Assembly: GCF_003258295.1 (NCBI RefSeq)
Contig: NZ_QKYN01000097.1
Span: 1-56,966, forward strand
Direction: 5' to 3'
Source: Streptacidiphilus pinicola
Lineage (GTDB): Bacteria; Actinomycetota; Actinomycetes; Streptomycetales; Streptomycetaceae
Length of the DNA stretch: 56,966 bases
How positions within the stretch are numbered: the stretch's first letter is position 1; every line of letters begins with the position of its first letter. The notes under the pieces were generated by a model, which saw only the letters and a program-made list of their open reading frames with translations, was not told the origin of the DNA and did no database searches. Positions 18,717 through 34,120 of the stretch are shown one piece after another. A program made the translations under genes and the position numbers.

Positions 18717-18943
18717 TCGTGTCCGGGCGGCGCGGGGCAGTTGACGGAGTATCGGGCCGACTTCCGCAGGCCCGGGTGAACCGGCGGAAATAGGCGGGGC
18801 ACTTTTCGACAGAGTGGTCCGGTGGTGAATTCAAATGGGCCGCCCGAGGACCTGACGAAGTGGAAATTCCGCCGTTGACCCTCTCCTTTGTCGCTGTCGA
18901 GACTTTCGCGCAGGCCAAGAATTCGCGAGCACGGAGGTTCTAT
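18717..18943 (+). promoter_or_regulatory. Promoter region of the DAHP synthase - PhzE operon
   Basis: This gene-free region is less GC-rich than its neighbours. TTGACC at about 18875 could be a -35 element. An inverted repeat CGGGCC / GGCCCG spans 18753-18774 around a 10-base loop. No copy of the AAACC-N8-GGT operator-like motif found elsewhere in the block was seen here, so control by the TetR regulators may be indirect. A GGAGG ribosome site precedes the ATG at 18944. Confidence 0.4.
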
Positions 18944-20134
18944 ATGATCACCGACGCGACCATGCCACCGCCGGCCGTCGGCGACTGGAAAACCCTGCCC
19001 GCAAAACAGCAGCCGGCTTGGGAGGATCTCGGGCTGCTGTCGGAGACCGCTGCGGAGCTGGAGACCCGGCCGGGACTGGTCGACTGGAGCGAGGTCGCCG
19101 AACTGCGGGCGCTCCTCGCCGAGGTGGCCGGCGGGAGGCTCCAGGTCGTGCAGGCGGGCGACTGCGCCGAGGATCCCACCGAGTGCGAGCCCGGGTACGT
19201 GGCGCGCAAGGTCGCGCTGCTGGACGCCCTGGCGGGTGTCATGTCGTTGCGTTCCCCGCGTCCGGTGGTCCGGATCGGCCGGATGGCCGGGCAGTTCGGC
19301 AAGCCCCGGTCCCGGCCGACCGAGACGGTCGGCGGCGTCGAGCTGCCGGTGTTCCGCGGACACCTGGTGAACAGCCCCGAGCCCGACCCCGAGCTGCGCC
19401 GGCCGGACCCGCGCCGCCTGCTGGCCGGCTACGACGCGGCGGCCGCGGCCATGGACGGCCTGCGGCTGCTCGCCGTGGCCACACCGGTCCCCGGCACGCC
19501 CGTGTGGACCAGCCACGAGGCGCTGCTGCTGGACTACGAGGGCCCGCTGCTGCGCTGCAACGACGCGGGCCTGAGCTACCTGGCCTCGACCCACTTCCCG
19601 TGGATCGGGGAGCGCACCCGGCAGCCCGAGGGGGCGCACGTCGCGCTGCTCGCGACCGTCGCCAACCCGATCGCCTGCAAGGTCGGGCCGACCATGACGG
19701 CGGACGAACTGCTGCGGCTCTGCGCCCTGCTCGATCCGCGGCGCGAGGCGGGCCGGCTCACGCTGATCGCCCGCATGGGCGCCGACGCGGTGTCAGAGCG
19801 GCTGCCCGCCCTGGTGACCGCCGTCCGCGAGGCCGGGCACCCCGTCATCTGGCTCACCGACCCGATGCACGGCAACACCGTGGCGGGGCCGGACGGGCTG
19901 AAGACCCGGCTGGTGGAGACCGTCGTCCGTGAGGTCGAGGGCTTCCAGGAGGCACTCGCGTCCGTGGGCGCGGTGGCCGGTGGAATTCACCTGGAAACCA
20001 CCCCGGACGAGGTGACGGAATGCGCTCACGACGCGACGCAGATTTCGCGGGTGAGTGAGAAGTACACGAGTTTCTGCGACCCGCGTCTCAACCCGTCACA
20101 GGCGCTGCGGGTCGCCTCGGTCTGGCGCGGCTGA
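18944..20134 (+). CDS. Class II 3-deoxy-D-arabino-heptulosonate 7-phosphate synthase
   Basis: The 396-residue enzyme condenses PEP and erythrose 4-phosphate, the entry to the shikimate pathway. Class II markers are seen: QAGDCAED with the metal cysteine near 74, GRMAGQFGKPRS (PEP/E4P binding, about 107-118), DPMHGN (His ligand), GGIHLE (Glu ligand) and FCDPRLN (Asp ligand). It is shorter than the housekeeping AroG type (about 450-460), like DAHP synthases of secondary-metabolite clusters. The ATG at 18944 has a GGAGG site; an in-frame GTG at 18860 is less likely. It heads a four-gene operon and probably boosts chorismate supply. Confidence 0.94.
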   Translation: MITDATMPPPAVGDWKTLPAKQQPAWEDLGLLSETAAELETRPGLVDWSEVAELRALLAEVAGGRLQVVQAGDCAEDPTECEPGYVARKVALLDALAGVMSLRSPRPVVRIGRMAGQFGKPRSRPTETVGGVELPVFRGHLVNSPEPDPELRRPDPRRLLAGYDAAAAAMDGLRLLAVATPVPGTPVWTSHEALLLDYEGPLLRCNDAGLSYLASTHFPWIGERTRQPEGAHVALLATVANPIACKVGPTMTADELLRLCALLDPRREAGRLTLIARMGADAVSERLPALVTAVREAGHPVIWLTDPMHGNTVAGPDGLKTRLVETVVREVEGFQEALASVGAVAGGIHLETTPDEVTECAHDATQISRVSEKYTSFCDPRLNPSQALRVASVWRG

Positions 20135-20186
20135 TTTCCCCGCCGCACAGAATTCGTTTTGATCACCCTCCAGAGCTGGGGTCGCC

Positions 20187-20978
20187 ATGAACGGGATGGA
20201 GAACAAGGTCGCGCTGGTCACCGGAGCCGCCGGCGGGATCGGTGAGGCCGTGGTCAGGGCGCTCGCCGGGCTGGGCGTCGCGGTGGCGCTGGTCGACCGG
20301 AACCGGGAGCGGCTGGAGGTCCTGGCCAAGGACCTGCGCCGGGACGGCAGACGGGCCGAGCCCCTCCCCGCCGACGTCACGGACAGCGCGGAGGTCGAAG
20401 CCGCGGTCTCCGAGGCGGAGCGGCGGCTCGGCGGCCTCGACTACCTGGTGAACGCGGCCGGGGTGCTGCGCACCGGGGAGGCCAGGGAGCTGAGCGACAG
20501 CGACTGGTCGGCCACCTTCGCGGTGAACACCACCGGGGTGTTCTTCGTCTCCCGGGCCGTGGTCAACCGCATGGTGGCCCGCGGTTCCGGCGGGGTGATC
20601 GTGACGGTGGCCTCGAACGCGGCCGGCACCGCCCGGATGGAGATGTCCGCGTACGCGGCCTCCAAGGCCGCGGCCACCATGTTCACCAAGTGCCTCGGGC
20701 TGGAGGTCGCCAGGTTCGGCATCCGCTGCAACGTGGTGGCCCCGGGCTCGACCGACACGCCGATGCTCACCGCCCTGTGGGAGGACGGCGGGGACGACGA
20801 CGCCCTGCGCGCCTCCATCGACGGGGTCGCCTCGGCCTACCGGGTCGGGATCCCGCTGGGCCGGATCGCCCGGCCCGAGCACATCGCGGACGCGGTGCTG
20901 TTCCTGCTCTCGGAGCAGGCCGCACACATCACCATGCACGACCTCACCGTCGACGGCGGCGCCGCACTGGGTCACTGA
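20187..20978 (+). CDS. EntA/DhbA-like short-chain dehydrogenase (probable DHHA dehydrogenase)
   Basis: This 263-residue classical SDR has the cofactor motif TGAAGGIG (12-19), NAAG near 87, and catalytic Tyr156 and Lys160 in YAASK. The EntA/DhbA hallmark [13 protein letters not shown] follows. EntA enzymes oxidise 2,3-dihydro-2,3-dihydroxybenzoate. Placed before PhzD- and PhzE-like genes, the likely substrate is the amino analogue trans-2,3-dihydro-3-hydroxyanthranilate, giving 3-hydroxyanthranilate with NADH. The gene lies 52 bases after the DAHP synthase gene and 65 before the isochorismatase gene. The alternative is true 2,3-DHB formation, which the PhzE-type partner makes unlikely. Confidence 0.88.
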
Positions 20979-21043
20979 CCGGCAGACGCGGGCCCGCGCC
21001 GTCGGGCCCGCGTCGACCACCGAAACCCAAGAGGAGAACTCGC

Positions 21044-21679
21044 ATGGCCATCCCCGAGATCGCCCCGTACCCGATGCCCGAGCAGGGCGACTTCCCCGAG
21101 TCCGTCGCGCAGTGGACGGTCGACCCCGACCGCGCGGTGCTGCTCGTCCACGACATGCAGAAGTACTTCCTGGCCCCGTTCCCGGCCGGTGAGTCCCCCG
21201 TGACGGACCTGGTCCGGAACGCCACCCTGCTGCGCGAGCGGTGCGCCGAGCTCGGCGTCCCGGTCGCCTACACCGCGCAGCCGGGCGGCATGACGCCCGA
21301 GCAGCGGGGGCTGCTCAAGGACTTCTGGGGTCCCGGGATGACCGTCTCCCCCGAGCACCGCCAGGTGGTCGACCCGATCCGGCCGACCGAGGGCGACCTG
21401 GTCCTCACCAAGTGGCGGTACAGCGCCTTCCACCGCAGCCCGCTGCGGGAGTTCATGGCGGACCGGGGCCGCGACCAGCTCGTCGTCTGCGGCGTGTACG
21501 CCCATGTGGGTGTGCTGATGACCGCCTGCGACGCGTTCTCCCTGGACATCCAGCCCTTCCTGGTCGCCGACGCCGTCGCGGACTTCTCCCTCGAGTACCA
21601 CCACTCGGCGCTGCGGTACGCGGCGGAGCGCTGCGCGATGACGGTGACCACCAAGACCGTTCTGAACCAACTCGGTTGA
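21044..21679 (+). CDS. phzD: PhzD-like isochorismatase (ADIC hydrolase)
   Basis: The 211-residue protein follows PhzD closely: [10 protein letters not shown] start, [11 protein letters not shown] with catalytic Asp37, [13 protein letters not shown] with Lys123, and [16 protein letters not shown] followed by [15 protein letters not shown]. PhzD cleaves pyruvate from 2-amino-2-deoxyisochorismate to give trans-2,3-dihydro-3-hydroxyanthranilate (DHHA). There is no aryl-carrier domain, so it is not an EntB-type siderophore fusion. GAGGAG precedes the ATG at 21044. It lies 37 bases upstream of the PhzE-like gene, which makes its substrate. Confidence 0.93.
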
Positions 21680-21716
21680 CGACCGTGCCGGACCGACTCA
21701 CAAGGAGGGAAAGGAC

Positions 21717-23690
21717 ATGACGGACAGTCCGGAACACGCACGGGGCGCTCTGCTGGAGCGGATCCTGGCCGGCTCCTGGGACCAGGTGCCCGCCTTCGCC
21801 CTGCTCCACCGTCCGGAGACGGGCCGGGCGGACACGGTCGACCTGCTCGTCGGCGAGGTGGCCGAGGTGGCCGCGCTGTCCGACATCCCGCTGCGGACGG
21901 ACGGGGCGGACAAGGCGGCGGGGACCGGCAGGGTCGAGCACGAGGTGCTGGCGCTGATCCCCTACCGGCAGATCGCCGAGCGCGGCTTCGCGGCCACGGA
22001 CGACGGCTCGCCGCTGCTGGCCCTGTCCGTGCACGCGCAGGAGACGCTCCCGCTGCCCTGGCTGCTGGACCACCTGCCGCAGGCGCAGATCGCGCTCTCC
22101 GGCGGCGACTTCGACGTGGCCGACACCGACTACGCCGAGACCGTCCGGCAGATCATCCGCGAGGAGATCGGCCGGGGCGAGGGCGCCAACTTCGTGATCC
22201 GGCGCTCGTTCGTCGCCGACATCACCAACTGGTCGGTCGCGGCGGCCCTCACGTTCTTCCGCCGACTGCTCGAACACGAGCGCGGCGCCTACTGGACCTT
22301 CGTGGTGCACACCGGTGACCGGACCTTCGTCGGCGCGACGCCGGAGCGGCACGTCAGCCTCGCCGAAGGCGTGGCCGTGATGAACCCGATCAGCGGCACC
22401 TACCGCTACCCGGTCACCGGACCGACCCTGTGGGGCGTGCTCTCCTTCCTCGCCGACCCGAAGGAGGCGGGTGAGCTCTACATGGTCGTCGACGAGGAGC
22501 TCAAGATGATGGCCCGGATCAGCCCCGCCGGGGTGCGCGTCCGGGGTCCGCACCTGATGCAGATGGCGCGGCTGGCCCACACCGAGTACTTCATCGAGGG
22601 TGAGACGACGCGCGACGTCCGCGACATCCTGCGCGAGACGCTGTTCGCCCCGACCGTCACCGGCAGCCCGCTCGAGAGCGCGGCCAAGGTGATCCGCCGT
22701 CACGAGCCGCAGGGCCGTGGCTACTACAGCGGAGTGATGGCGCTCATCGGCCGCGACGCCGAGGGCGGGCGCACCCTCGACTCGTCCATCCTGATCCGGA
22801 CGGCCGACATCGACGCCACCGGCCGGGTCCGCATCGGCGTCGGCGCGACGCTGGTGCGCGACTCGGATCCGGACTCGGAGGTGGCCGAGACGCGGGCCAA
22901 GGCGGCCGGGCTGCTCGCCGCCCTCCGGGGCGGCGGCGCGTACCTCGAGGCACCCGGGCTGCCGACGGAGGCGGAGCGCGCCGCGGCGCAGGCCCCGGAT
23001 CTGTCCGAACACCCCGAGGTGCTGCGGGCGTTGGCGGCGCGGAACGACGCGCTCGCACCGTTCTGGCTGGAGTCCGCCCAGGAGCGCCGGCGTCCGCTGC
23101 CGCTGCTGGAGGGCCGGCGGGTGCTGATCGTCGACGCCGAGGACACGTTCACGGCGATGTGGGACCAGCAACTGCGGTCGCTCGGGCTCGACGTGACGGT
23201 CCGGCGCTTCGACGAGGAGTACTGGCCCAACGGCTACGACCTGGTGGTGCTGGGCCCGGGTCCGGGTGACCCGCAGGAGCTGGACCACCCCAAGATCGCG
23301 CACCTGCGGGGCGTCACGCGCCGGCTGCTGAGGACCGGGACGCCGTTCCTGTCGGTCTGCCTCAGCCACCAGGTGCTCTGCACCGTGCTCGGCTTCGACC
23401 TGGTCCGCCGCGAGCGGCCCAACCAGGGCGTGCAGAAGAAGATCGATCTCTTCGGCCGCACCCAGCTCGTCGGCTTCTACAACACCTTCGCCGGGCGCAG
23501 CGACGCCGACGTGGTGGAGACGGACGGCCCGGCGGGCACCGTCCGGGTGTGCCGCGACCCGGAGACCGGGCAGATCCACGCGCTGCGCGGAGAGGGATTC
23601 CGCTCCGTGCAGTTCCACCCCGAATCGGTGCTGAGCCAGGACGGCCTGAGCATCATCACCGACATGCTGACCTGTCTCCTGGGTGGCTGA
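21717..23690 (+). CDS. phzE: PhzE-like 2-amino-2-deoxyisochorismate synthase
   Basis: A 657-residue fusion. The chorismate-utilising domain (about 100-420) shows GATPERHVSL, MNPISGTYRYP and EELKMMARISP, and is followed by a class I glutamine amidotransferase domain (about 460-655). The amidotransferase has nucleophile Cys548 in VCLSHQ and His/Glu in QFHPESVLS. QKKIDLFGR is typical of PhzE rather than TrpE/G. The enzyme makes ADIC from chorismate using glutamine ammonia. Phenazine genes phzF, phzA/B and phzG are absent, so DHHA must go elsewhere. AAGGAGG precedes the start, and a perfect hairpin follows the stop. Confidence 0.93.
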   Translation: MTDSPEHARGALLERILAGSWDQVPAFALLHRPETGRADTVDLLVGEVAEVAALSDIPLRTDGADKAAGTGRVEHEVLALIPYRQIAERGFAATDDGSPLLALSVHAQETLPLPWLLDHLPQAQIALSGGDFDVADTDYAETVRQIIREEIGRGEGANFVIRRSFVADITNWSVAAALTFFRRLLEHERGAYWTFVVHTGDRTFVGATPERHVSLAEGVAVMNPISGTYRYPVTGPTLWGVLSFLADPKEAGELYMVVDEELKMMARISPAGVRVRGPHLMQMARLAHTEYFIEGETTRDVRDILRETLFAPTVTGSPLESAAKVIRRHEPQGRGYYSGVMALIGRDAEGGRTLDSSILIRTADIDATGRVRIGVGATLVRDSDPDSEVAETRAKAAGLLAALRGGGAYLEAPGLPTEAERAAAQAPDLSEHPEVLRALAARNDALAPFWLESAQERRRPLPLLEGRRVLIVDAEDTFTAMWDQQLRSLGLDVTVRRFDEEYWPNGYDLVVLGPGPGDPQELDHPKIAHLRGVTRRLLRTGTPFLSVCLSHQVLCTVLGFDLVRRERPNQGVQKKIDLFGRTQLVGFYNTFAGRSDADVVETDGPAGTVRVCRDPETGQIHALRGEGFRSVQFHPESVLSQDGLSIITDMLTCLLGG

Positions 23691-23710
23691 CCTCCCCGCA
23701 GCCGCCCCCC

Positions 23711-23749
23711 GCGGGCGCGGACCGTTCTCCCCAGCCGGTCCGCGCCCGC
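23711..23749. terminator. Bidirectional hairpin between phzE-like and tetR genes
   Basis: A perfect 14-base stem (23711-23724 with 23736-23749, GCGGGCGCGGACCG and its complement) with an 11-base loop lies 20 bases past the PhzE-like stop. It ends both convergent transcripts. Confidence 0.8.
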
Positions 23750-23782
23750 CCGTTCAGGACGTTCCGCTCAGGACGCCGCGGT

Positions 23783-24427
23783 TCAGGACGCCGGTCGCGC
23801 GGCGGTCCTGGCGGCCACCCGGGACGAGCCGCCGGGGTCGAGCGTCAGCAACCGCTCCGGGGTCACCAGGCCGGGCAGCAGCAGCTTCCACCACGCGGTG
23901 ATGCGCTCCAGCAGGTCGGCCCGGCCGGCCAGCACCTGCGAGGTGAGCTGGATTCCGGTGAACGACGCGGTGACGACCGCCGCCGCCTGGTCCAGGTCCA
24001 GGCCGGGGAGCAGGTCGCCGGCCTCCTCGGCACGCTGCAGCAGCTGTCGGGCCATGTCGATGAAGACCCGCCAGGGCTCCACGTCCGGCGCCTCGAAGGC
24101 GCCGTGCTCGATGACGAGGCGGACCGTGGCCCGGATGAAGGGATCGTCCAGCAGCGCCCGCGCGTAGGCCACGCTGACGTCGATCACCGCCTGGAACCCC
24201 GGCGCCGACCAGTCCACCTGCTCGGCCCAGGTCGACTGCTCCGCAATGACGGCGTGGGCCAACTCCTCCTTGGAGGCGAAGTGGAAGTACACCGCCCCCT
24301 TGGTCAGCCCCGCGACCGAGAGGATCTCCGACATCGTCGCGGCCGCGAAGCCGCGCCGGTCGAACACCTCGGCCGCTGCGCGAAGCACCTCCTGACGAGT
24401 GCGGACTGCCCGCTCCTGCCTGGCCAT
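23783..24427 (-). CDS. TetR-family gamma-butyrolactone receptor homologue (ArpA/ScbR type)
   Basis: The 214-residue regulator has an N-terminal HTH: RQEVLRAAAEVFDRRGFAAA, SEILSVAGLTKGAVYFHF and SKEELAHAVI (about 8-60). That is the motif set of A-factor receptor proteins. The ligand domain contains EPWRVF, possibly the tryptophan that contacts the ligand in this family. The start at 24427 (MARQERAVRTRQ) follows GGGGCGA; a longer frame from 24496 would run over the operator. It is transcribed divergently from the AfsA-like gene, with an operator-like site about 35 bases upstream. It probably represses itself and the synthase until butyrolactone binds. Confidence 0.9.
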   Translation of the reverse strand: MARQERAVRTRQEVLRAAAEVFDRRGFAAATMSEILSVAGLTKGAVYFHFASKEELAHAVIAEQSTWAEQVDWSAPGFQAVIDVSVAYARALLDDPFIRATVRLVIEHGAFEAPDVEPWRVFIDMARQLLQRAEEAGDLLPGLDLDQAAAVVTASFTGIQLTSQVLAGRADLLERITAWWKLLLPGLVTPERLLTLDPGGSSRVAARTAARPAS

Positions 24428-24461
24428 TGATCGCCCCATGTTCCCTGTCGTGCCCCTGGAA

Positions 24462-24481
24462 AAAAACCGACCGGGTGGTAC
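24462..24481. promoter_or_regulatory. Operator-like site 1 (ARE type) between tetR and afsA homologues
   Basis: AAAAACCGACCGGGTGGTAC (24462-24481) has an imperfect dyad and the core AAACC-N8-GGT. It resembles autoregulatory elements bound by butyrolactone receptors (ArpA/ScbR/FarA type). It lies about 35 bases upstream of the TetR gene start and 161 upstream of the AfsA-like start. Confidence 0.6.
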
Positions 24482-24597
24482 TCTACCCTGGCTCACGTTG
24501 AATTGGTGCGCGATGCGAGTGACGCCGAGGTCAGGGAGAACCTACGGCGAGGCACTGCTCTTCACCGGCTGGTTTCTTCCCGGCCACCGAACGCATC

Positions 24598-24618
24598 CCG
24601 GGCCGTCCGACGGCCCGG
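24598..24618. repeat. Perfect 10-base inverted repeat in the afsA-like leader
   Basis: Arms 24598-24607 and 24609-24618 (CCGGGCCGTC and GACGGCCCGG) are perfectly complementary around one central base. The repeat sits 23 bases before the AfsA-like ATG, close to the ribosome site. It could be a second operator or an mRNA structure; the 1-base centre favours a protein site. Confidence 0.55.
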
Positions 24619-24641
24619 ACAACACTGCTTCTGGGGGAAAA

Positions 24642-25619
24642 ATGAGCACATTGCTAGACAGCCCCTTGCGCCCAACCCCGGTCCAGCTCGTCGAGGACGG
24701 CCCGGACCCGGACCTCCACCAGCAAACCGTGCCCCGGCGGCTGGTTCACCGCGCCTCCGTGTCGGAGGTGCTCATCACCGGCTGGCGCCGGGTCGGGGCC
24801 GACCGGTTCCTGGTCGGCGCCCAGTGGCCGCGCGGCCACAGCTTCTACGCCCCGGTCGAGGAGGTGCACGACCCGCTGATCGTCGCGGAGACCCTGCGCC
24901 AGGCGGCCCTCCTCCTCTCGCACGTGGCCTACGAGATCCCGCTGGACCACGCGTTCCTGATGCAGGACATGTCCTTCCAGGTCGACCCCGGCAAACTGGG
25001 CGTCGGCGCGGGACCGACCGACGTGACGATCGGCATCACCGGCCGCGACATCCGCCGCCGCCGCTCGGTCGTCTCCGCCATGCGCTACGACTTCGCCTTC
25101 TACCGGGGACACGAGCACGTGGGCGGCGGGGGCGGCGCCTTCGAGAGCGTCTCCCCCCAGGCCTACGCCCGGCTGCGCGGCGACGCCTTCGAACGGCACG
25201 TCATGAGCGCGCCCCTGCAGTACGACGGACGGCTCGGCCACCGGGTCCGGGACTCCGTCCTGGCGCCCACGGCCACCCGGTACCGCTGGGTGATCGAGGC
25301 CGACCGCCGGCACCCGGTGCTCTTCGACCACCCCGTCGACCACCTGCCCGGCATGGTGCTGGTGGAGGCGATGCGTCAGGCGGCGAAGGTCGTCACCGGC
25401 CGCCGGCTCGACGGCCCCTTCGGCCTCGACGTCTCCTTCGCCAAGTACGCAGAGCTCGACCGGCCCGTCTTCGTCCAGGCCACCCCCGGGCAGCCGCGCG
25501 AGAACGGCGACCGCGTGGTGCGCGTCGAGGTCGAGCAGGACGGCGAGACCGTCGCCCAAGGCGTGCTGGACATCCGGGCGCTGCCCGGAGCGGCCGAGCC
25601 AAGAGGCCAGGAGCGATGA
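24642..25619 (+). CDS. afsA: AfsA-family gamma-butyrolactone synthase
   Basis: The 325-residue protein has two hot-dog-like AfsA repeats. The first carries RQAALLLSHVAYEIP and FLMQDMSF (about 85-115). The second carries VDHLPGMVLVEAMRQAAK (about 230-248) with the late FGLDVSFAKYAELD. AfsA enzymes join glycerone phosphate with a beta-ketoacyl chain to start butyrolactone signal synthesis. The ATG at 24642 follows GGGGGAAA. The stop overlaps the SDR gene as ATGA. The divergent tetR gene and operator-like site make a standard signal/receptor pair. The acyl group cannot be predicted, and gamma-butenolide or methylenomycin-furan signals are also possible for AfsA homologues. Confidence 0.93.
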   Translation: MSTLLDSPLRPTPVQLVEDGPDPDLHQQTVPRRLVHRASVSEVLITGWRRVGADRFLVGAQWPRGHSFYAPVEEVHDPLIVAETLRQAALLLSHVAYEIPLDHAFLMQDMSFQVDPGKLGVGAGPTDVTIGITGRDIRRRRSVVSAMRYDFAFYRGHEHVGGGGGAFESVSPQAYARLRGDAFERHVMSAPLQYDGRLGHRVRDSVLAPTATRYRWVIEADRRHPVLFDHPVDHLPGMVLVEAMRQAAKVVTGRRLDGPFGLDVSFAKYAELDRPVFVQATPGQPRENGDRVVRVEVEQDGETVAQGVLDIRALPGAAEPRGQER

Positions 25620-26632
25620 GCTCCCGGATCCTGCTGACGGGCGGCTCCGGTTTCGTGGGCAGCCATGTGTTAGGCCTTCTGCAAGCGGGCGGCGACCGGG
25701 TACGGGTCCTGCGCCACCGGCGCGGACTCCCCGGTGCCGCTCGCACCGGCCTCTTAGAGGTCGTCACCGGCGACCTTCGTGACGCCGGCTCCCTGCACGG
25801 CGTCTGCGACGGTGTCGGCACCGTGCTCCACCTCGCCGTCCAGATCGGCGGGGCCCCGGAAACCTGCCGGCAGGTCAACGAGTTGGGCACCGCCGCACTG
25901 CTGGCGGAGGCCCGGCGCGCGGGGGTGCGGCGGTTCGTGGCGCTCAGCACCACGGCGGTGTACCGGGACGGCGTCCACCGCGGCGCCGGCGAAAACCTGC
26001 TCCCCCTCGACCCCCACTCGGCCACCAGCAGGACCCGACTGGCCGCCGAGCGACGGGTGGTGGCGGCGGACGGGATCGTGCTCCGCCCCCACCTGGTCTA
26101 CGGGACAGGCGACCGCTGGGTGATCCCCGCGCTCGTCGAGCTCCTGAGCCACGTCCCGCGCTGGGTCGGCGGCGGCCGGGCCCGCGTCTCGGTGATCGCC
26201 GTGGAGGACCTGGCCCGCCACCTGGTGGCTCTGGCCCGAACTCCCTGGGATCCGACGCCCGGTGGCGAGATCTACCACGCCTGCGAGCCCGAACCCGTCC
26301 GGATCCGGTATCTGGCGAGGCTGGTGGCGGCGGAGTTGGGCCTCGCGCTGCCGGCGGGGGAGATCACGGCGGCCGACGCGCTCGCCCTGCTGCCGGACGA
26401 CGAGGCCGAGTTGTGGCAGCGGCGGCTCAGTCTGCTCGGCGTGGACCACTGGTACGACGGCAGGCGGCTGTGGCAGCGGACCGGCGTGCCGCCGAGCCCG
26501 GCCACGGCCGAACGGTTCAACCGGCACGCGGCTTGGTACCGAGGGCAGTTGGGATGTTCGGGCGCGGTGCCGCAGCGCGCCGGGCCCGCGGTTCAGCCGC
26601 CCCTGGAGGGTCGGCTGGGCTCGGCGGCGTGA
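25616..26632 (+). CDS. NAD-dependent epimerase/dehydratase (extended SDR) with two TTA codons
   Basis: The 338-residue protein shows extended-SDR features: LLTGGSGFVGSHVLGLL (5-21), GDLRD near 51, LHLAVQ near 72, ALSTTAVY near 115, LRPHLVYGTGD near 160. The usual YxxxK active site aligns with TSRTR, so Tyr and Lys seem replaced by Thr and Arg. The ATGA overlap with the AfsA-like gene implies a shared role in signal maturation, as seen for SDR partners of AfsA. Codons 19 (25670-25672) and 47 (25754-25756) are TTA, so translation should need the bldA leucyl-tRNA. The 3' end overlaps the convergent tetR gene by 40 bases. Confidence 0.87.
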   Translation: MSSRILLTGGSGFVGSHVLGLLQAGGDRVRVLRHRRGLPGAARTGLLEVVTGDLRDAGSLHGVCDGVGTVLHLAVQIGGAPETCRQVNELGTAALLAEARRAGVRRFVALSTTAVYRDGVHRGAGENLLPLDPHSATSRTRLAAERRVVAADGIVLRPHLVYGTGDRWVIPALVELLSHVPRWVGGGRARVSVIAVEDLARHLVALARTPWDPTPGGEIYHACEPEPVRIRYLARLVAAELGLALPAGEITAADALALLPDDEAELWQRRLSLLGVDHWYDGRRLWQRTGVPPSPATAERFNRHAAWYRGQLGCSGAVPQRAGPAVQPPLEGRLGSAA

Positions 26633-27354: not shown

Positions 27355-27443
27355 CACTTCTCCCATGTATCGAGGCAACACCGCTGTGTAGCGAGGCCAC
27401 ATGGAGGCTGCCTTGAGACGGAGTGGAGGCGAGCATCAGTTTA

Positions 27444-27463
27444 ACAAACCAACCAAGCGGTTT
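27444..27463. promoter_or_regulatory. Operator-like site 2 (ARE type)
   Basis: ACAAACCAACCAAGCGGTTT (27444-27463) contains AAACC-N8-GGTTT, five-base perfect arms 8 bases apart. It closely fits the published style of butyrolactone-receptor boxes as I recall it. It lies about 90 bases upstream of the second tetR gene, within the 257-base divergent region. Confidence 0.65.
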
Positions 27464-27537
27464 AAGGCAAGCGCTGGTGACGGGGACACCCGCAGGTCCC
27501 GGGGAACGACCAGGTCATATTCGAACTGACAGAGTAT

Positions 27538-27557
27538 AGAAACCAGGCGGTCGGTTT
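27538..27557. promoter_or_regulatory. Operator-like site 3 (ARE type) before the transposase-like gene
   Basis: AGAAACCAGGCGGTCGGTTT (27538-27557) again has AAACC-N8-GGTTT with perfect five-base arms. It lies about 55 bases upstream of the transposase-like ATG, where a bound repressor would cover the promoter. It is 94 bases from site 2. Confidence 0.65.
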
Positions 27558-27611
27558 TGTATCCTGCAAGGTGTCCGCAAGGTCGGCGACGCAGAAGGGG
27601 GATGGAAGACC

Positions 27612-28829
27612 ATGGAGGGTGTCGTTGGGAGAGGCGCCGCTGAGCAGAGCTGGGGCGACGTCGCGGACGACTTCGTGACCGAGTTCTCCCAGCGCATGCT
27701 GGCCCCGCTGCGGCGACGGGACCAAAGGGCGAGGGGCGAGTGGTATATCTCCGGCCTGTTGTCGGTGCCGGGCCGCAAGTCCATGCGGGCGCTCGCGGTC
27801 GTCGCCGGCCACGGTGCGGCCGAGCAGAGTCTGCATCACTTCATCAGTGATTCCTCCTGGCGCTGGGAGCCGGTCCGGCAGACGCTCGCGCGTCACCTGG
27901 ACCGAGTGCTGCTCCCCCAGGCCTGGGTGCTCGACTCGATCGCCATTCCGAAGGCCGGGGAGCACTCCGTCGGGGTCGAGGAGTCGTTCCGCAGCGCCCT
28001 GGGGCGCGTCGTCAAGAGCCAACAGGCGTACGGCGTGTGGCTGGCCACCGAGAACATGAGCGTGCCGGTCAACTGGCGCCTGGTGCTGCCGCCGGACTGG
28101 CTCACCGACGACGCGCGACGGCGACGGGCCAAGATCCCCGACGACGTCGCGCTCACCAGCAAGGAGGCCAGCGCGGTCGACGCGGCCGTCGAGATCACCG
28201 GTGCCGAGTGGGGACTGCGCCGGCGACCCGTCGTGATGGACGCCCGCGAGGCCAACGTCCCGGCCTTGGTGCAGGAGTTCAACCGGCACCAGATCCCGTT
28301 CGTGCTGCGCGTCGACGGCGGCACCCGCCTGGTCGGCTACGACCCGAGCCTGCCGGGACGCGGCGAACGCCTTTTCCAGGCCCAGCAGTTGATCGAGTGG
28401 GCCAAGCGCTGGTCGCGCCCGGTGGGGTGGGTCGACCCGGACTACTCCATCACTCGCAGCATCTTGGTCAGCGGTACCAAGGCCGCGCTGCCGGGAACCC
28501 GCCGGCCCGGCCCGGACGGGGCGCCCCAGGACCTTCCCCTCGCCCTGGTCGGGGGCTGGTCCGGCACCCGCGGACGGCCGGTCGAGCTCTGGCTGTCCAA
28601 CATGGCCGAGGTGCCGCCGGTGGCCCTGCTGCGCCTGGGCAAGCTCACCCGCCGGGTGGCCAAGGACTTCACCGAGATCAGCAGCAAGGTCGGCATGCGG
28701 GACTTCGAGGGCCGCTCCTTCGCCGGATGGCACCGGCACACGACGCTGTGCTGCGTGGCGCACGCGATCACCGTGCTCTCCTGCGCCCGGCGTCAGGGCC
28801 TGGAGGGCCCGGGCGAGCACAGCGCCTGA
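27612..28829 (+). CDS. IS701-family DDE transposase-like protein, probably domesticated
   Basis: The 405-residue protein resembles IS701/DDE_5 transposases: YISGLLSVPGRKSMRAL (about 48-64), VLDSIAIPKAGEHSVGV (first Asp), PVVMDAREANVPALV (second Asp), and DFEGRSFAGWHRHTTLCCVA near the end. The motif before FEGR, normally ELGLDH, reads KVGMRD, so the expected catalytic Glu seems replaced by Lys. The usual DDTG reads DSIA. No terminal inverted repeats or target duplication were seen. It has its own operator-like site and a long terminator, as a regulated host gene would. It could be an active-site-dead DNA-binding protein. Confidence 0.75.
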   Translation: MEGVVGRGAAEQSWGDVADDFVTEFSQRMLAPLRRRDQRARGEWYISGLLSVPGRKSMRALAVVAGHGAAEQSLHHFISDSSWRWEPVRQTLARHLDRVLLPQAWVLDSIAIPKAGEHSVGVEESFRSALGRVVKSQQAYGVWLATENMSVPVNWRLVLPPDWLTDDARRRRAKIPDDVALTSKEASAVDAAVEITGAEWGLRRRPVVMDAREANVPALVQEFNRHQIPFVLRVDGGTRLVGYDPSLPGRGERLFQAQQLIEWAKRWSRPVGWVDPDYSITRSILVSGTKAALPGTRRPGPDGAPQDLPLALVGGWSGTRGRPVELWLSNMAEVPPVALLRLGKLTRRVAKDFTEISSKVGMRDFEGRSFAGWHRHTTLCCVAHAITVLSCARRQGLEGPGEHSA

Positions 28830-28851
28830 ACCCGGCAGTGGAAACGACCGC

Positions 28852-28903
28852 GGCACCGCTCGTCGTACCGCCCGAACCGTCGGGCGGTGCGACGAGCGGT
28901 GCC
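28852..28903. terminator. Very long bidirectional hairpin
   Basis: Arms 28852-28875 and 28880-28903 pair over 24 bases with one T-G wobble and a 4-base loop. It sits between the convergent transposase-like and aroE-like genes, 22 and 11 bases from their stops. Confidence 0.85.
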
Positions 28904-28914
28904 GGCTCCGGCGG

Positions 28915-29799
28915 TCAGGCGGCGCGGCGGGCCAACTCCGCCTGGCCGGCCGCGCGCAGGACCTCGACCGACACGTCGCCGCGGCCCGTCATCAGCTCGA
29001 CCTGGCGCACCGCCTGGTGCACCAGCAGCGCGAGGCCGTCCACGACCGTGCTGCCCGCGAACCCGGCCGCCTTGACCAGACGCGTCGGCCAGGCACCGTA
29101 GGCCACGTCGAAGACGGCGGCGCCGGAGTACATCACCGCGGCGGCGTACCGGTCCGCGTCCTTCGCCGGGAGGGTGGAGATCACCAGCCGGGTGCCGGGG
29201 AGCAGCCGGTCGAGCTCGCGGAAGGTGCGCACCTCCACGGCGACCCCGAGCCGCCCCGCCGCGGTGTCCGCCTCCGAGGCCCGGCCCCGCTCCCGCACCA
29301 CCAGGGTGCTCTCGCGCACGCCCAACTCCCGCAGCGCGGCCAGCGCGGAGCAGGCGGTCGCACCGCCGCCCAGCACCACCGCGGGGCTCGGGGCCTCGAC
29401 GCCCGCCTCCCGCAGGGCGGCCACCATCGCGGCGACGTCCGTGTTGTCGCCGAAGCTGCGGCCGTCGCGGAACACCACCGTGTTCGCGCCGCCGACGTCG
29501 AGCGCGAGATCCGAGACCTCGTCCAGCAACGGCAGCGCCGCGCGCTTGAGCGGCTCGGTCAGCGAGAGCCCGCCCCAGGACGGGTCCAGCGTGCCGAGCA
29601 GGGCCGCCAGCCCGAGCCCGTCGCACTCCACCGCCTCGTACGACCAGTCCAGACCGAGCGCGGCGTAGGCGGCCCGGTGCAGCGTCGGACAGAGCGAGTG
29701 CCGGACCGGCGAGCCCAGCACGGCCGCGCGCCGCGACACCGGCACCCCGCGCTCGGGCGTGAGGACCCCTCGGCCAGGACGTGGCTGCTCCAGGTTCAT
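28915..29799 (-). CDS. aroE: Shikimate dehydrogenase-like protein (AroE paralogue)
   Basis: The 294-residue AroE-fold protein keeps catalytic Lys in LTEPLK, Asn in GGANT, Asp in DNTDV and Gln in LLVHQAV. Its NADP loop is VLGGGATA. Two substrate-binding positions differ from classic AroE: SxS in the HSxSP motif reads HSLCP, and the NVT motif reads SLT. It may therefore prefer quinate, aminoshikimate or another substrate, or simply raise shikimate flux with the DAHP synthase. The start at 29799 has AAAGGAG upstream. It is divergent from the quinone-reductase operon, about 280 bases away. Confidence 0.85.
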   Translation of the reverse strand: MNLEQPRPGRGVLTPERGVPVSRRAAVLGSPVRHSLCPTLHRAAYAALGLDWSYEAVECDGLGLAALLGTLDPSWGGLSLTEPLKRAALPLLDEVSDLALDVGGANTVVFRDGRSFGDNTDVAAMVAALREAGVEAPSPAVVLGGGATACSALAALRELGVRESTLVVRERGRASEADTAAGRLGVAVEVRTFRELDRLLPGTRLVISTLPAKDADRYAAAVMYSGAAVFDVAYGAWPTRLVKAAGFAGSTVVDGLALLVHQAVRQVELMTGRGDVSVEVLRAAGQAELARRAA

Positions 29800-30079
29800 G
29801 GTCGGTGCTCCTTTCGCCGGAAAGACGGAACTCTCGGTACGGAACAGCTTAGACAGAACGTCACCACGGCGGCCCAACCAGTTCGCACAGCGTCATATCG
29901 GTGAGCGACCTGACACAGTTCCGCCGGCACTTCGTCGGGAGCCCCGCCCGACGGTCCGTCAAAGGTGATGAAGTGCAGGACGGTTGATTGCCGCTGGAGT
30001 CCGGCCGGAGTGACAGTCCTGGTGGGCGGTGTCGGGCCGGGCCCGAACAATCTGACACATCCGAATGGGAGTTGCTCAC
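29800..30079. other. Divergent intergenic region between aroE-like and wrbA-like genes
   Basis: This gene-free region should hold both promoters. A perfect palindrome TCGGGCC-G-GGCCCGA (30032-30046) lies 34 bases before the WrbA-like start and resembles the GC palindrome in the AfsA-like leader. A weaker hairpin from GGGAGCCCCGCCCGACGGTCC lies near 29937-29957. No AAACC-N8-GGT site was found. Confidence 0.4.
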
Positions 30080-30694
30080 GTGACGAACGTCGCCGTCATC
30101 TACTACTCGTCCACCGGGAACACCCACAAGCTGGCCGTCGAAGCCGCCGAGGCCGCCGTCAAGGCCGACGCCGAGGTTCGTCTGCGCCGCGTGGCGGAGC
30201 TCGCCCCGGCGGAGGCCATCGCCGCCAAGCCCGGCTGGGCCGAACATCTGGCGGAGACCTCGGATGTCCCCGAGGCGAGCCTCGACGACCTGGACTGGGC
30301 CGACGTCCTGCTCTTCGGCACTCCCACCCGGTTCGGCCTGCCGTCCGCCCAGCTCAAGCAGTTCATCGACACCACCGGTGGTCTGTGGCACCAGGGCAAG
30401 CTGGTGAACAAGGTCGTCTCCTCGTTCACCTCCACCGGGACCACCCACGGCGGCCAGGAGAGCACCCTGCTGGCGCTCAACAACACCTTCTACCACTGGA
30501 GCGCCATCATCGTGGCCCCCGGCTACGCGGACCCGATCCAGTTCGCGCCGACCAACGGCAACCCCTACGGCACGAGCCACGTCTCGAGCCAGAGCGACTC
30601 GCCCGGTGAGGAGAACCTCAGCGCGATCGGTTACCAGACCCGTCGCGCGGTCGAGATCGCCACGGCGCTGAAAGTCGGTTTCGCGAACATCTGA
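30080..30694 (+). CDS. WrbA-like NAD(P)H:quinone oxidoreductase
   Basis: The 204-residue flavodoxin-like protein has the FMN loop YYSSTGNTHKLA (about 8-19), the WrbA signature GTPTRFGLPSAQLKQFID with TTGGLW (about 82-105), and FTSTGTTHGGQEST. WrbA enzymes reduce quinones to hydroquinones by two electrons, limiting redox cycling. The GTG at 30080 follows GGGAG at 8 bases; an in-frame ATG at 30065 is possible. It leads the operon that continues with the aromatic hydroxylase, so it probably keeps a pathway intermediate reduced or protects the cell. Confidence 0.9.
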   Translation: MTNVAVIYYSSTGNTHKLAVEAAEAAVKADAEVRLRRVAELAPAEAIAAKPGWAEHLAETSDVPEASLDDLDWADVLLFGTPTRFGLPSAQLKQFIDTTGGLWHQGKLVNKVVSSFTSTGTTHGGQESTLLALNNTFYHWSAIIVAPGYADPIQFAPTNGNPYGTSHVSSQSDSPGEENLSAIGYQTRRAVEIATALKVGFANI

Positions 30695-30721
30695 ACGACG
30701 TCGCGCCGAATTCCTCCACAC

Positions 30722-30755
30722 CCGCAGGAGATTCCACCCACGGAATGCCCTGCGG
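30722..30755. repeat. Interrupted palindrome between wrbA-like and hydroxylase genes
   Basis: Outer arms CCGCAGG/CCTGCGG (30722-30728, 30749-30755) and inner arms ATTCC/GGAAT (30731-30735, 30742-30746) nest around a 6-base loop. It may be an operator or an mRNA hairpin that separates expression of the first gene from the next three. Confidence 0.5.
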
Positions 30756-30813
30756 CGTTCTGACGAAATTGCTCGACCGGCCTGAGCGACCAACTCCTGA
30801 CGAAAGGACCGAC

Positions 30814-32004
30814 ATGGCACGGATACTGATCGCCGGTGGCGGGATCGGCGGGCTGGCCGCGGCACTGAGCGTCTCCCGGTCGGGGCACCACGTGGTGGTC
30901 CTGGAGAGCCGGGACACCTTCACCGAACTGGGCGCCGGCATCCAGCTGGCCCCGAACGCCTTCCACGCCCTCGACCGGCTCGGCGTCGGCGAGGAGGTGC
31001 GCCGCCGTGCCGTCCACATCGACGAACTGCGGTTCATGGACGGCACCACCGGCGAGCGCGTCGCGGTGATGCCGCTGACCGGCGCGTACCGCGCGCGGTT
31101 CGGCAACCCGTACACGGTGGTGCACCGGATCGACCTGTACGCGCCGCTGCTGGCAGCCTGTCAGGCCGAGGACGGGATCGAGCTGCGCACCGGCGCCCAC
31201 GTGGAGCGCTACACCCAGGACCGCGCGGGCGTCACCGTCCGCCTGGCCTCGGGCGAGCAGGTGCACGGCGCCGCCCTGATCGGCGCCGACGGCATCAACT
31301 CCCGGGTGCGCCGCCAGCTCGTGGGCGACGGCCCGCCGAAGGTCTCCGGCCACACCATCTACCGCACCGTGGTGCCGATGGACCAGGTGCCCGCGGAGCT
31401 GCGCTGGAACACCGTGACGCTCTGGGCGGGACCCAAGTGGCACTTCGTCCACTACCCCATCGGCGGCGGAAGGTTCCTCAACCTCGCCGCCACCAGGGAC
31501 GACGACGCCACCGTGGCGGTGACCGGGGTGCCGGTGGAGCGGGCGCACGTGCTGGGCGAGTTCCCGGGGCTCGGTGAAATCCCGCGCCGCCTGCTGGAAC
31601 TGGGCCGGGAGTGGCGGTCCTGGGTGCTGTGCGACCGGGACCCGGTGCGGACCTGGTGCGACGGCCGGGTGGTGCTCCTCGGCGACGCCGCCCACCCGAT
31701 GCTGCAGTACGCCGCGCAGGGCGCCTGCCAGGCGGTCGAGGACGCGGTGGTGCTCGGTGAGCTGATCGGCGCCGACGAGCCGGAGTTCGAGCAGCGCTTC
31801 GAGAAGTTCACCGCGGAACGCCGCGACCGGACCGACGCCACCCAGCTGCTGGCCCGGGAGATGGGCCGACAGCTCTACCACCCGGCCGGTGAGCGCGCCG
31901 TGGAACGCAACGCGATGCTGGCGGCGCTGTCCGCCGAGGAGATGTACGACAAGGTCGAGTGGCTGCACGGGACGCGCGTGGGCGCTGTCCCGGCCGCGCG
32001 ATGA
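30814..32004 (+). CDS. FAD-dependent aromatic hydroxylase (salicylate / 3-hydroxybenzoate hydroxylase type)
   Basis: The 396-residue group A flavoprotein monooxygenase has GGGIGGLAAALSVSRSG (8-24), the substrate-side ELGAGIQLAPNAFHAL, the DG motif LIGADGINSRVR (about 158-169), and the GD motif LLGDAAHPMLQYAAQGAC (about 288-305). This subgroup hydroxylates phenolic acids with NAD(P)H and O2, either para to an existing OH or with loss of the carboxylate. If 3-hydroxyanthranilate is the substrate, the product would be an amino-hydroquinone or amino-resorcinol. GAAAGGA precedes the ATG at 30814. It is co-transcribed with the next two genes. Confidence 0.9.
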   Translation: MARILIAGGGIGGLAAALSVSRSGHHVVVLESRDTFTELGAGIQLAPNAFHALDRLGVGEEVRRRAVHIDELRFMDGTTGERVAVMPLTGAYRARFGNPYTVVHRIDLYAPLLAACQAEDGIELRTGAHVERYTQDRAGVTVRLASGEQVHGAALIGADGINSRVRRQLVGDGPPKVSGHTIYRTVVPMDQVPAELRWNTVTLWAGPKWHFVHYPIGGGRFLNLAATRDDDATVAVTGVPVERAHVLGEFPGLGEIPRRLLELGREWRSWVLCDRDPVRTWCDGRVVLLGDAAHPMLQYAAQGACQAVEDAVVLGELIGADEPEFEQRFEKFTAERRDRTDATQLLAREMGRQLYHPAGERAVERNAMLAALSAEEMYDKVEWLHGTRVGAVPAAR

Positions 32005-32032
32005 CTCAGCCCTGAGAGGGGTTCACACCACC

Positions 32033-33124
32033 ATGCAGTTCGGAATCTTCACCGTCGGCGACCTCACCCCGGAGCCCGGGTCGAAGACCCCGCCGACCGA
32101 GCAGGCACGCCTGAAGGCCACGGCTGCCATGGCCGTCCGCGCGGAGCAGGCCGGTCTCGACGTGTTCGCCACCGGCGAGCACCACAACCCGCCCTTCGTG
32201 AGCTCCTCGCCGACGACGCTGCTCGGCTACGTCGCGGCGCGCACCGAGCGGATCATCCTGTCCACCTCGACGACGCTGATCACCACCAACGACCCGGTGA
32301 AGATCGCCGAGGACTTCGCGGTGCTGCAGCACCTGGCGGACGGCCGGGTCGACCTGATGCTCGGGCGCGGCAACACCGGGCCGGTGTACCCGTGGTTCGG
32401 CAAGGACATCCGCCAGGGCATCCCGCTCGCGGTCGAGAACTACGCGCTGCTGCACCGGCTCTGGCGCGAGGAGAACGTCGACTGGCAGGGCCGCTTCCGC
32501 ACGCCGCTGCAGGGGTTCACCTCGGTGCCCCGTCCACTGGACGGCGTGCCGCCCTTCGTCTGGCACGGCTCGATCCGCAGCCCCGAGATCGCCGAACAGG
32601 CGGCGTTCTACGGGGACGGCTTCTTCGCCAACCACATCTTCTGGCCGAAGGGGCACTTCCAGCGCCTGGTGGAGCTGTACCGCACCCGGTACGCCCACTA
32701 CGGCCACGGCACCCCCGAGCAGGCCTACGTGGGGCTCGGCGGGCAGGTCTACCTGCACCGCAACTCGCAGGAGGCGGTGCGCCGCTACCGTCCCTACTTC
32801 GACAACTTCGGGATCTACCAGGGCGGTCCGCCGCTGGAGGAGGTCATGGAGGAGACCCCGCTGACGGTCGGCAGCCCGCAGCAGGTCATCGACAAGACCC
32901 TGAGCTTCGCCGAGACGTTCGGCGACTACCAGCGCCAGCTCTTCCTGGTGGACTCCGGCGGGATGTCGCTGTCCGAGGCGCTGGAGCAGATCGACCTCCT
33001 CGGCGAGGAGGTCCTGCCGGTGCTCCGCAAGGAGTTCGCGAACCGCCGCGCGGCCGGCGTGCCGGACGGTCCCACCCATGCGGCCCGCGCCGCCCAGGCG
33101 TCCGAGGGGGGCGTGCCCGCATGA
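32033..33124 (+). CDS. Luciferase-like (LLM) flavin-dependent oxidoreductase
   Basis: The 363-residue bacterial-luciferase-fold protein has FATGEHHNPPFVSSSPTTLL (about 44-63), STSTTLITTNDPVKIAED, and RVDLMLGRGNTGPVYPWFG (about 104-122), followed by a long helical end (MSLSEALEQIDLLGEEVLP). Such enzymes use reduced FMN or F420 for oxygenation or hydride transfer. There is no dedicated flavin reductase in the block, though the WrbA-like protein could supply reduced flavin. It lies 28 bases after the FAD hydroxylase gene and overlaps the GST gene (ATGA). It could do a second ring oxidation or an epoxidation; this is inference. Confidence 0.9.
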   Translation: MQFGIFTVGDLTPEPGSKTPPTEQARLKATAAMAVRAEQAGLDVFATGEHHNPPFVSSSPTTLLGYVAARTERIILSTSTTLITTNDPVKIAEDFAVLQHLADGRVDLMLGRGNTGPVYPWFGKDIRQGIPLAVENYALLHRLWREENVDWQGRFRTPLQGFTSVPRPLDGVPPFVWHGSIRSPEIAEQAAFYGDGFFANHIFWPKGHFQRLVELYRTRYAHYGHGTPEQAYVGLGGQVYLHRNSQEAVRRYRPYFDNFGIYQGGPPLEEVMEETPLTVGSPQQVIDKTLSFAETFGDYQRQLFLVDSGGMSLSEALEQIDLLGEEVLPVLRKEFANRRAAGVPDGPTHAARAAQASEGGVPA

Positions 33125-34113
33125 GCGTCCAGCAGCGCGAGCGCAAGGAACACAAGCGGGCTCCCCTGCACTTCCGGACCCGGATCACCGCGGACGGCCG
33201 CGAGGGCCTGCCGGTCGAGGCGGGACGCTACCGGCTCGTCGTCAGCCTGGCCTGCCCCTGGGCCAACCGGCTGCTGATCGCCCGCCGCCTCTTCGGGCTG
33301 GAGCAGGCGATCCCCGTGGCCGTCACCGACCCGGTGCAGGAGATGATCGAGGGCGACTACCACTGGGTCTTCTCCGAGGCGAACGGCGACCCCGACGGAC
33401 GAGACCGGGTCCTCGGCATCCACGCACTGCGCGAGGCCTACCTGGCCGCGGAGCCGGACTACACCGGCGGGGTCAGCGTCCCGGCCGTGGTGGACACCAC
33501 CACCGGCCACCTGGTGAGCAACGACTTCCCCAACCTGACCCTGGACCTCGGCTCCGAGTGGCGGGCGCTGCACCGCCCCGGTGCGCCCGACCTCTACCCC
33601 GCGCACCTGCGCGAGGAGATCGACACCGTGGCCGAGGAGGTCTACCAGGAGGTCAACTGCGGGGTCTACCACGCCGGTTTCGCGCAGAGCCAGGAGGTCT
33701 ACGACCGCGCGGTGACCAAGCTGTTCCGCCGGCTGGACCTGCTGGAGCAGCGCCTCAGCACCCGCCGCTACCTGGTCGGCGACCGGCTGACCGAGGCCGA
33801 CGTCCGGCTGTGGGTCACGCTGATCCGCTTCGACCCGGTCTACCACGGCCACTTCAAGTGCAACATCCGCAAGCTCGCCGAGTACCCGGCGCTCTGGGGC
33901 TACACCCGGGACCTCTTCCAGACCCCGGGGTTCGGCGACACCATCGACTTCGAGCACATCCAGCGGCACTACTACGCCACCCACGACATGATCAACCCCA
34001 CCCGGATCGTGGCCCACGGCCCGGACCCGGCGCTGCTGCTCACCCCGCACGGCCGCGAGGCGCTCGGCGGCAGCCCCTTCGGCCCGGACGCCACCGCGCC
34101 GGACCCGGTCTGA
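33121..34113 (+). CDS. Glutathionyl-hydroquinone reductase-like GST (YqjG/PcpF/ECM4 family)
   Basis: The 330-residue protein has the family's catalytic Cys45 in ACPWANR, then VPAVVDTTTGHLVSNDFPNL and YLVGDRLTEADVRLWVTLIR (C-terminal GST domain, about 215-234). HYYATHDMINPTRIV lies near the end. In proteobacteria these enzymes reduce glutathionyl-hydroquinones. Actinobacteria make mycothiol rather than glutathione, so the thiol partner here is open. Position in an operon with an aromatic hydroxylase and a quinone reductase strongly suggests a (hydro)quinone intermediate or product. It is translationally coupled to the LLM gene. Confidence 0.9.
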   Translation: MSVQQRERKEHKRAPLHFRTRITADGREGLPVEAGRYRLVVSLACPWANRLLIARRLFGLEQAIPVAVTDPVQEMIEGDYHWVFSEANGDPDGRDRVLGIHALREAYLAAEPDYTGGVSVPAVVDTTTGHLVSNDFPNLTLDLGSEWRALHRPGAPDLYPAHLREEIDTVAEEVYQEVNCGVYHAGFAQSQEVYDRAVTKLFRRLDLLEQRLSTRRYLVGDRLTEADVRLWVTLIRFDPVYHGHFKCNIRKLAEYPALWGYTRDLFQTPGFGDTIDFEHIQRHYYATHDMINPTRIVAHGPDPALLLTPHGREALGGSPFGPDATAPDPV

Positions 34114-34120
34114 CCGCGGC

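Follow-up and report, generated by a model that had tools for sequence, protein, structure and literature searches.

The best-described relatives of the locus reported here come from three sources. In Streptomyces paulus, pau17–21 are proposed to build the quinone-like ring A of paulomycin (PMC4425429 and PMC4802897, available portions). In limazepine and benzoxazole biosynthesis (PMC5958127 and PMC8097395, likewise in part), a 3-deoxy-D-arabino-heptulosonate-7-phosphate (DAHP) synthase and EntA-type, PhzD and PhzE enzymes lead to 3-hydroxyanthranilate. The SfbR/SfbR2 system (PMC7480387, in part) combines an AfsA homologue, acidic and basic ScbR-type proteins and 18-nt operators. We analysed a window of 56,966 nucleotides of Streptacidiphilus pinicola (contig NZ_QKYN01000097.1) in which two biosynthetic operons of these enzyme types enclose a butyrolactone cassette within an inserted segment of about 15.4 kb, hereafter the island. 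Our best overall explanation, to which we assign a probability of roughly 0.72, is that the island was acquired horizontally as one block and makes an aminohydroquinone or aminoquinone acid under butyrolactone control. Gene calls, with start codons from a GC-frame gene caller, were compared with Pfam, NCBIfam and PDB, and the absences of families given below refer to the island's called genes. The insertion site and the biosynthetic genes are as follows:

18579..18666, plus strand: tRNA-Ser(CGA), left marker of the insertion site
18722..34153: inserted segment of about 15.4 kb, defined against the empty site of a same-genus genome (BLASTN against locus L193, flanks conserved)
18944..20134, plus strand: class II DAHP synthase, short form (PF01474, DAHP_synth_2, 435 bits; TIGR01358 403 bits, below the cut-off of 615)
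20187..20978, plus strand: EntA/DhbA-type short-chain dehydrogenase/reductase (SDR), predicted 2,3-dihydro-3-hydroxyanthranilate (DHHA) dehydrogenase (TIGR04316 334 bits, cut-off 300)
21044..21679, plus strand: PhzD-type isochorismatase, predicted to convert 2-amino-2-deoxyisochorismate (ADIC) to DHHA (best PDB matches 3r77 and 1nf9, 271 bits; alignments)
21717..23690, plus strand: PhzE-type ADIC synthase with fused glutaminase (PDB 3r74, 675 bits; tree)
28915..29799, minus strand: shikimate dehydrogenase AroE, putative precursor supply (NF001311 274 bits, cut-off 235); position conserved
30080..30694, plus strand: WrbA-type NAD(P)H:quinone oxidoreductase (162 bits, cut-off 141); position conserved
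30814..32004, plus strand: FAD hydroxylase (flavin monooxygenase, FMO) of 3-hydroxybenzoate 6-hydroxylase (3HB6H) type (PRK08163 472 bits, cut-off 459)
32033..33124, plus strand: luciferase-like monooxygenase (LLM), CE1758 family (TIGR04036 651 bits, cut-off 479)
33121..34113, plus strand: glutathionyl/mycothionyl-hydroquinone-reductase-like (GS-HQR-like) protein with a CPWA motif (PDB 4pts, 394 bits; no NCBIfam match)

The island is delimited by comparison with L193, where a lysA-like gene directly follows tRNA-Ser(CGA) and the site is empty: similarity to the window stops near 18721 and restarts near 34154, with both flanks kept. Because both operons and everything between them fall inside these breaks, the two operons are one inserted unit. 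Thirteen same-genus genomes were seen; tadA, the gene preceding the cluster, was present in all eleven that were queried for it, and in the seven stretches fetched around it tRNA-Ser(CGA) adjoined tadA (7/7) and the cluster was not seen (0/7). An integrase-type island was considered and rejected, as there is no integrase among the called genes and no 12-mer common to 18561–18960 and 34051–34430. The stretch after the tRNA gene (18667–34415) looks like an insertion hot spot in the genus; L192, L194 and L195 hold other, differing genes between tRNA-Ser(CGA) and the lysA-like gene, which was not seen in the fetched stretches of L196, L197 and L198. Just outside the island, a diaminopimelate-decarboxylase-type gene (34416–35681) is 91–92% identical to its counterpart in four of the seven same-genus stretches.

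An earlier note on this DNA, made from the sequence alone, had named a DAHP synthase and EntA-like, PhzD-like and PhzE-like genes in one operon and WrbA-like, FAD hydroxylase, LLM and GS-HQR-like genes in another, and family or PDB comparisons confirmed all eight. Its proposal that the first operon converts chorismate to 3-hydroxyanthranilate also gains support at the sequence level, with genes for ADIC synthase, DHHA synthase and DHHA dehydrogenase all present. Homologues of this PhzE/PhzD/EntA-type route have been characterized in print, with Lim6 and Lim5 assayed in vitro (PMC5958127) and Pau20 plus six further DHHA dehydrogenases supporting it (PMC8097395), as far as the available portions of both sources go. 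The dedicated DAHP synthase and AroE, the latter absent from the earlier account, would raise chorismate supply. As that account had stated, the genes that would point elsewhere are missing: PhzF, PhzA/B and PhzG have no Pfam match, and no nonribosomal peptide synthetase or polyketide synthase (NRPS/PKS) family was found, among the called genes.

We rejected the reading of the window's PhzE as a housekeeping anthranilate synthase, as the gene lies alongside PhzD and EntA and falls together with the copies of other clusters. In the PhzE tree this grouping has support of 100/99 (four-row set) or 99/96 (five rows), and the separation of cluster from housekeeping copies has weak support (67/96). 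The 'housekeeping' rows L011, L014, L019 and L020 are cut or wrongly picked, with very long branches, and the neighbours of 3r74 in the tree are rows from outside both labelled sets; we therefore treat the tree as supportive only. A second PhzE-like gene (58%) lies elsewhere in the genome beside a class II DAHP synthase homologue (G000:C200:69843–71732); it is possibly the housekeeping anthranilate synthase, and similar copies occur in many relatives.

The closest parallel is the paulomycin ring-A module, in which DAHP synthase, EntA, PhzD, PhzE and 3HB6H correspond to pau21, 20, 19, 18 and 17, a likeness judged by enzyme type, and from which a quinone-like ring arises from chorismate, as predicted here. 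The genes pau17–21 are consecutive, whereas in the island about 7 kb separates phzE from the FMO gene, which belongs to the second operon together with WrbA, LLM and GS-HQR; the island also adds AroE, butyrolactone genes and a pseudo-transposase. The paulomycin cluster has a second FAD monooxygenase, Pau27, together with sugar and paulic-acid genes; among the island's called genes there is no Pau27-type monooxygenase, C-glycosyltransferase or sugar gene, the rest of the genome not having been searched for them. Limazepine and benzoxazole pathways pass 3-hydroxyanthranilate to NRPS or benzoxazole assembly (available portions of the sources above), whereas its predicted fate in the island is hydroxylation to a para-hydroquinone. 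The five-gene core is thus already known from paulomycin ring A, and the combination is common in actinomycetes. The earlier note knew of no cluster with this gene set; the five-enzyme logic is that of pau17–21, and the full set with GS-HQR indeed occurred in no other locus examined. Two further candidates for a known relative were set aside: foxicin is described with a PKS/NRPS cluster, and the available source text gives no gene cluster for sarubicin.

On the strength of a 3HB6H-type FMO together with the enzyme types of paulomycin ring A, the most likely product would be 2-amino-3,6-dihydroxybenzoate and its quinone. The FMO would hydroxylate 3-hydroxyanthranilate para to the 3-OH, with subsequent oxidation to the quinone; WrbA may reduce this quinone, and the GS-HQR-like enzyme, in which CPWA is presumably the catalytic motif of GS-/mycothionyl-hydroquinone reductases, may strip thiol adducts from it, in keeping with the quinone handling that the earlier note had assigned to both. 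Dihydroxyanthranil or aminohydroquinone compounds are not mentioned in the literature found in the search, among the matches listed. LL-C10037alpha, whose epoxyquinone type the earlier note considered a plausible related scaffold, is likewise named in none of the papers listed.

Of the other explanations, the most durable, which we nevertheless consider unlikely, is that the island supplies only a precursor and a larger conjugate is finished by genes elsewhere, much as paulomycin and the benzoxazoles are made from 3-hydroxyanthranilate units. No tailoring or export families, including exporters and acyl- or glycosyl-transferases, were found among the called genes, and completion of the final product may thus depend on genes outside the island. 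KASIII, arylamine N-acetyltransferase, AMP-binding and LuxC/aldehyde-dehydrogenase-type genes are present in related clusters (families checked). Against this, the locus of Streptomyces scabiei 87.22 (L138/L058) is just as small and lacks all of these genes between its DAHP synthase and FMO.

A second alternative, less probable than precursor supply, concerns the chemistry: the FMO could be a decarboxylating hydroxylase, or 3-hydroxyanthranilate could be dimerized to a phenoxazinone, and the product would then not be 3,6-dihydroxyanthranilate. Salicylate hydroxylases are close in sequence space, and a multicopper oxidase adjoins WrbA in four of ten close relatives (L050, L051, L053 and L054). 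Yet the FMO passes the 3HB6H model (472 versus 459) and fails the salicylate hydroxylase model TIGR03219 (126 bits, cut-off 446), and the island has no multicopper oxidase among its called genes. The positions equivalent to His213, Tyr217 and Gln301 of 3HB6H are H233, Y237 and Q321 in the window's FMO (open reading frame read from 30745; the true start is probably the ATG at 30814, preceded by the ribosome-binding-site-like GAAAGGA) and are kept in the 80 best homologues, the search pattern for which already required H or Q at the Gln301 position. We take Gln301 to be a further active-site position of 3HB6H. His213 and Tyr217 are active-site residues of this enzyme according to the available part of PMC5472690. 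The addition of a second ring hydroxyl by the FAD hydroxylase, proposed earlier, is thereby upheld on sequence grounds, most likely para to the 3-OH.

The two operons might also be unrelated neighbours, one for 3-hydroxyanthranilate and one for general quinone detoxification, an explanation that we regard as very improbable. To its credit, LLM homologues lie outside the cluster in 11/13 genomes and GS-HQR homologues in 5/10 other genomes, two of these five at only 35–37% identity. The single insertion, the conserved positions of WrbA and AroE and the linkage of FMO to PhzD speak against it, and for FMO and WrbA it is already contradicted. PhzD and the FMO alignment A1 served as queries against a sample of 150 genomes of the family. 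At E 1e-100, FMO matches fell into 27 at ≥566 bits and 4 at 352–368 bits, a border set after seeing the gap. Close FMOs lie within 30 kb of PhzD on the same contig in 26/27 cases (window included), the 27th, in G181, having PhzD on another contig; none of the four weaker matches does (0/4). Without the six FMOs from genomes represented in the A1 query alignment, linkage is 20/21. PhzD occurs in 25/25 genomes with a close FMO versus 47/125 others (Fisher p 8e-10, not corrected for relatedness). Given the single insertion against the empty site and the 26/27 linkage, the gene grouping is more than chance, in agreement with the earlier treatment of both operons as one cluster.

Across named genomes, 395 places encode an FMO relative of any degree, and the flanks of the best 80 (up to 10 kb, often ended by the contig; identity thresholds 35–50%; counts therefore lower bounds) contain PhzE at 54, PhzD at 52, EntA-type at 62, DAHP synthase at 41, IS701-like at 18, WrbA at 11, AroE at 8, AfsA at 8, LLM at 4 and GS-HQR-like at 0. 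Ten loci were compared in detail (L047–L055 and L058), and these close relatives have FMO (10/10), WrbA (9), AroE (8), IS701-like (8), LLM (3) and GS-HQR-like (0) genes. PhzE proteins 63–77% identical to the window's were found in 9/9 genomes searched, on the FMO-bearing contig in 7/9 as judged from contig number and length; L055, the tenth locus, has PhzE within the stretch itself. Of the dedicated four-gene quinone operon claimed earlier, WrbA and FMO are therefore conserved members. LLM is a common gene, with a match in 12/13 genomes searched, and the island's version is an additional one, a paralogue being present at G000:C235 of this genome. The GS-HQR-like gene was seen in-cluster only in the window (0 of 80 and 0 of 40 loci mapped). 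Neither do the two form a conserved pair, as GS-HQR loci in S. scabiei (L127), S. ipomoeae (L128, where the GS-HQR gene itself was not called by the gene caller) and S. cyaneofuscatus (L129) have no LLM neighbour.

Apart from additional genes at some points, S. scabiei and Kitasatospora share the order DAHP synthase, EntA, PhzD, PhzE, butyrolactone genes, IS701-like, AroE, WrbA and FMO; in S. scabiei 87.22 the genes between PhzE and IS701-like are, in order, haloacid dehalogenase (HAD)-like, SDR, AfsA, ScbR and ScbR. Some Streptomyces and Kitasatospora versions add 5-enolpyruvylshikimate-3-phosphate synthase, chorismate synthase, shikimate kinase or dehydroquinate synthase (one protein each Pfam-checked) and L047 adds transaldolase, which fits a cluster raising its own chorismate supply. 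LuxC/aldehyde-dehydrogenase-type and AMP-binding genes (the latter read as LuxE-like) occur in L049, L052, L053, L054 and L139, in several with shikimate-pathway genes, and suggest reduction of an aromatic acid in those clusters. In the same genus, L039 (G006:C4:1857000–1876900) contains broken FMO, PhzE, PhzD and EntA fragments in an assembly that is 76% complete, such that decay and sequencing faults are indistinguishable.

Between the operons, the following regulatory features were identified:

23783..24427, minus strand: ScbR-family protein, isoelectric point (pI) 5.3, receptor-like
24642..25619, plus strand: AfsA/ScbA-type butyrolactone synthase (326 bits, cut-off 200)
25616..26632, plus strand: NAD-dependent epimerase/reductase, probable butyrolactone tailoring (homologue in L047 at 60%)
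26593..27381, minus strand: second ScbR-family protein (scbR2), pI 9.56, pseudo-receptor-like
27446..27463: autoregulatory-element (ARE)-type palindrome 1, AAACC-N8-GGTTT, between scbR2 and the pseudo-transposase gene; conserved in close relatives
27540..27557: ARE-type palindrome 2, AAACC-N8-GGTTT, between the same two genes; conserved in close relatives
27612..28829, plus strand: IS701-like pseudo-transposase, Tn5 transposase fold, single copy (NCBIfam IS701 297 bits, cut-off 150)
28851..28904: 25-nt inverted repeat between two convergent genes, probable terminator hairpin

Judged by sequence, an AfsA-type synthase, an ScbR-type receptor and ARE operators together constitute a butyrolactone signalling system, in line with the afsA/tetR cassette and butyrolactone control proposed earlier. 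Butyrolactone receptors are generally acidic and pseudo-receptors basic, and the two ScbR-type regulators here (173 and 178 bits, cut-off 150) differ in the same way. AfsA and the epimerase would make the butyrolactone, with the paired operators as the presumed site of action of the two ScbR-type proteins. The window has two perfect AAACC-N8-GGTTT sites versus 0.01 expected. With the 18-nt consensus AAACVGNNBVNNCSGTTT (PMC7480387, available portion), one mismatch returns the same two palindromes (four matches on both strands) versus 0.11 expected, and three mismatches return 60 matches versus 58 expected. A third operator-like site before scbR1 (24464–24481) was discarded, because at two mismatches it is not above chance (7 matches versus 3.75 expected). 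Unlike SfbR/SfbR2-type systems, the island has its strongest operators flanking the pseudo-transposase gene, and no Streptomyces antibiotic regulatory protein (SARP) family is present among its called genes.

The operators follow one sub-lineage of the IS701-like gene, which the earlier account, like AroE, had not included in the island. Across 120 fetched loci (2.21 Mb, some overlapping) with 48 IS701-like genes, 24 sites had ≤1 mismatch to AAACC-N8-GGTTT, and 15 of them fell in the 400 bp preceding an IS701-like gene, stretches that make up about 1% of the total. At least one operator is kept upstream in 8/8 loci whose IS701-like protein is ≥60% identical to the window's, compared with 2/40 other genes; control through operators is thus largely a feature of one sub-lineage. 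The operators also precede scbR2 in the window, and part of the conservation may belong to that gene. In L049 and L052 the IS701-like gene is apart from scbR2 and an operator still lies about 100 bp upstream. From this conservation, including L049 and L052, we read the pseudo-transposase gene as being directly controlled by the butyrolactone switch in the sub-lineage.

Besides the lack of tailoring and export families, several observations count against a butyrolactone-controlled aminoquinone island. The regiochemistry of Pau17 is only proposed in print. In alignment A1 (rows 51–64% identical to the window) 5/8 rows have His in place of the Gln and one has Cys in place of the Tyr; the active-site pocket varies in the wider FMO family. 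No operator lies within 400 bp upstream in 38/48 IS701-like genes of the mapped loci, and none at ≤1 mismatch precedes the DAHP synthase or WrbA operon. Because of this last absence, the signal must reach both operons by another route, and the pseudo-transposase, which would relay it to biosynthesis, is the best candidate and the likely link.

That this gene is an ordinary insertion sequence, perhaps the island's vehicle, is the least credible explanation of all: it passes the NCBIfam IS701 model, yet unlike Tn5/IS701 transposases it has one genomic copy, no flanking inverted repeats and a catalytic triad that is incomplete in 22/22 homologues, and it adjoins AroE in 8/10 close relatives. The first motif's second D is absent in 22/22 and the third-motif E is kept in 7/22, under our assumed assignment of the IS701-like DDE motifs to triad positions. 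Three S. scabiei IS701 copies used for comparison are alike in the motif regions and not identical over full length. Of 51 strong IS701-like matches, the top of a longer list, 27 lie within 30 kb of PhzD and 24 do not. Away from PhzD, members of the IS701-like family (L152–L171) are repeatedly found beside a gene of roughly 600–680 amino acids; both neighbours of this kind that were scanned, in L033 and L152, proved to be GAF/PucR-type regulators. A PabAB-like gene, chorismate-binding with a fused glutaminase, is also present in L152.

We tentatively propose, at somewhat less than even odds, that a domesticated, triad-less transposase is the pathway-specific DNA-binding regulator of these aminoquinone clusters and, in one sub-lineage, a direct butyrolactone quorum-sensing target in the place of the usual SARP activator. 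No transposase-like or IS701/butyrolactone-linked regulator is reported among the matches listed in the literature searches, which consisted partly of titles and the beginnings of abstracts. Ring-A chemistry, until now associated with paulomycin, seems to be a widely distributed module, as 25 of the 150 sampled family genomes have a close FMO, all with PhzD; searches for a single pair of enzymes could thus reveal many aminoquinone clusters as yet uncharacterized. What annotation labels a transposase seems here to serve as the output through which a hormone switch regulates genes; if so, such genes would have to be interpreted differently when they occur in clusters.

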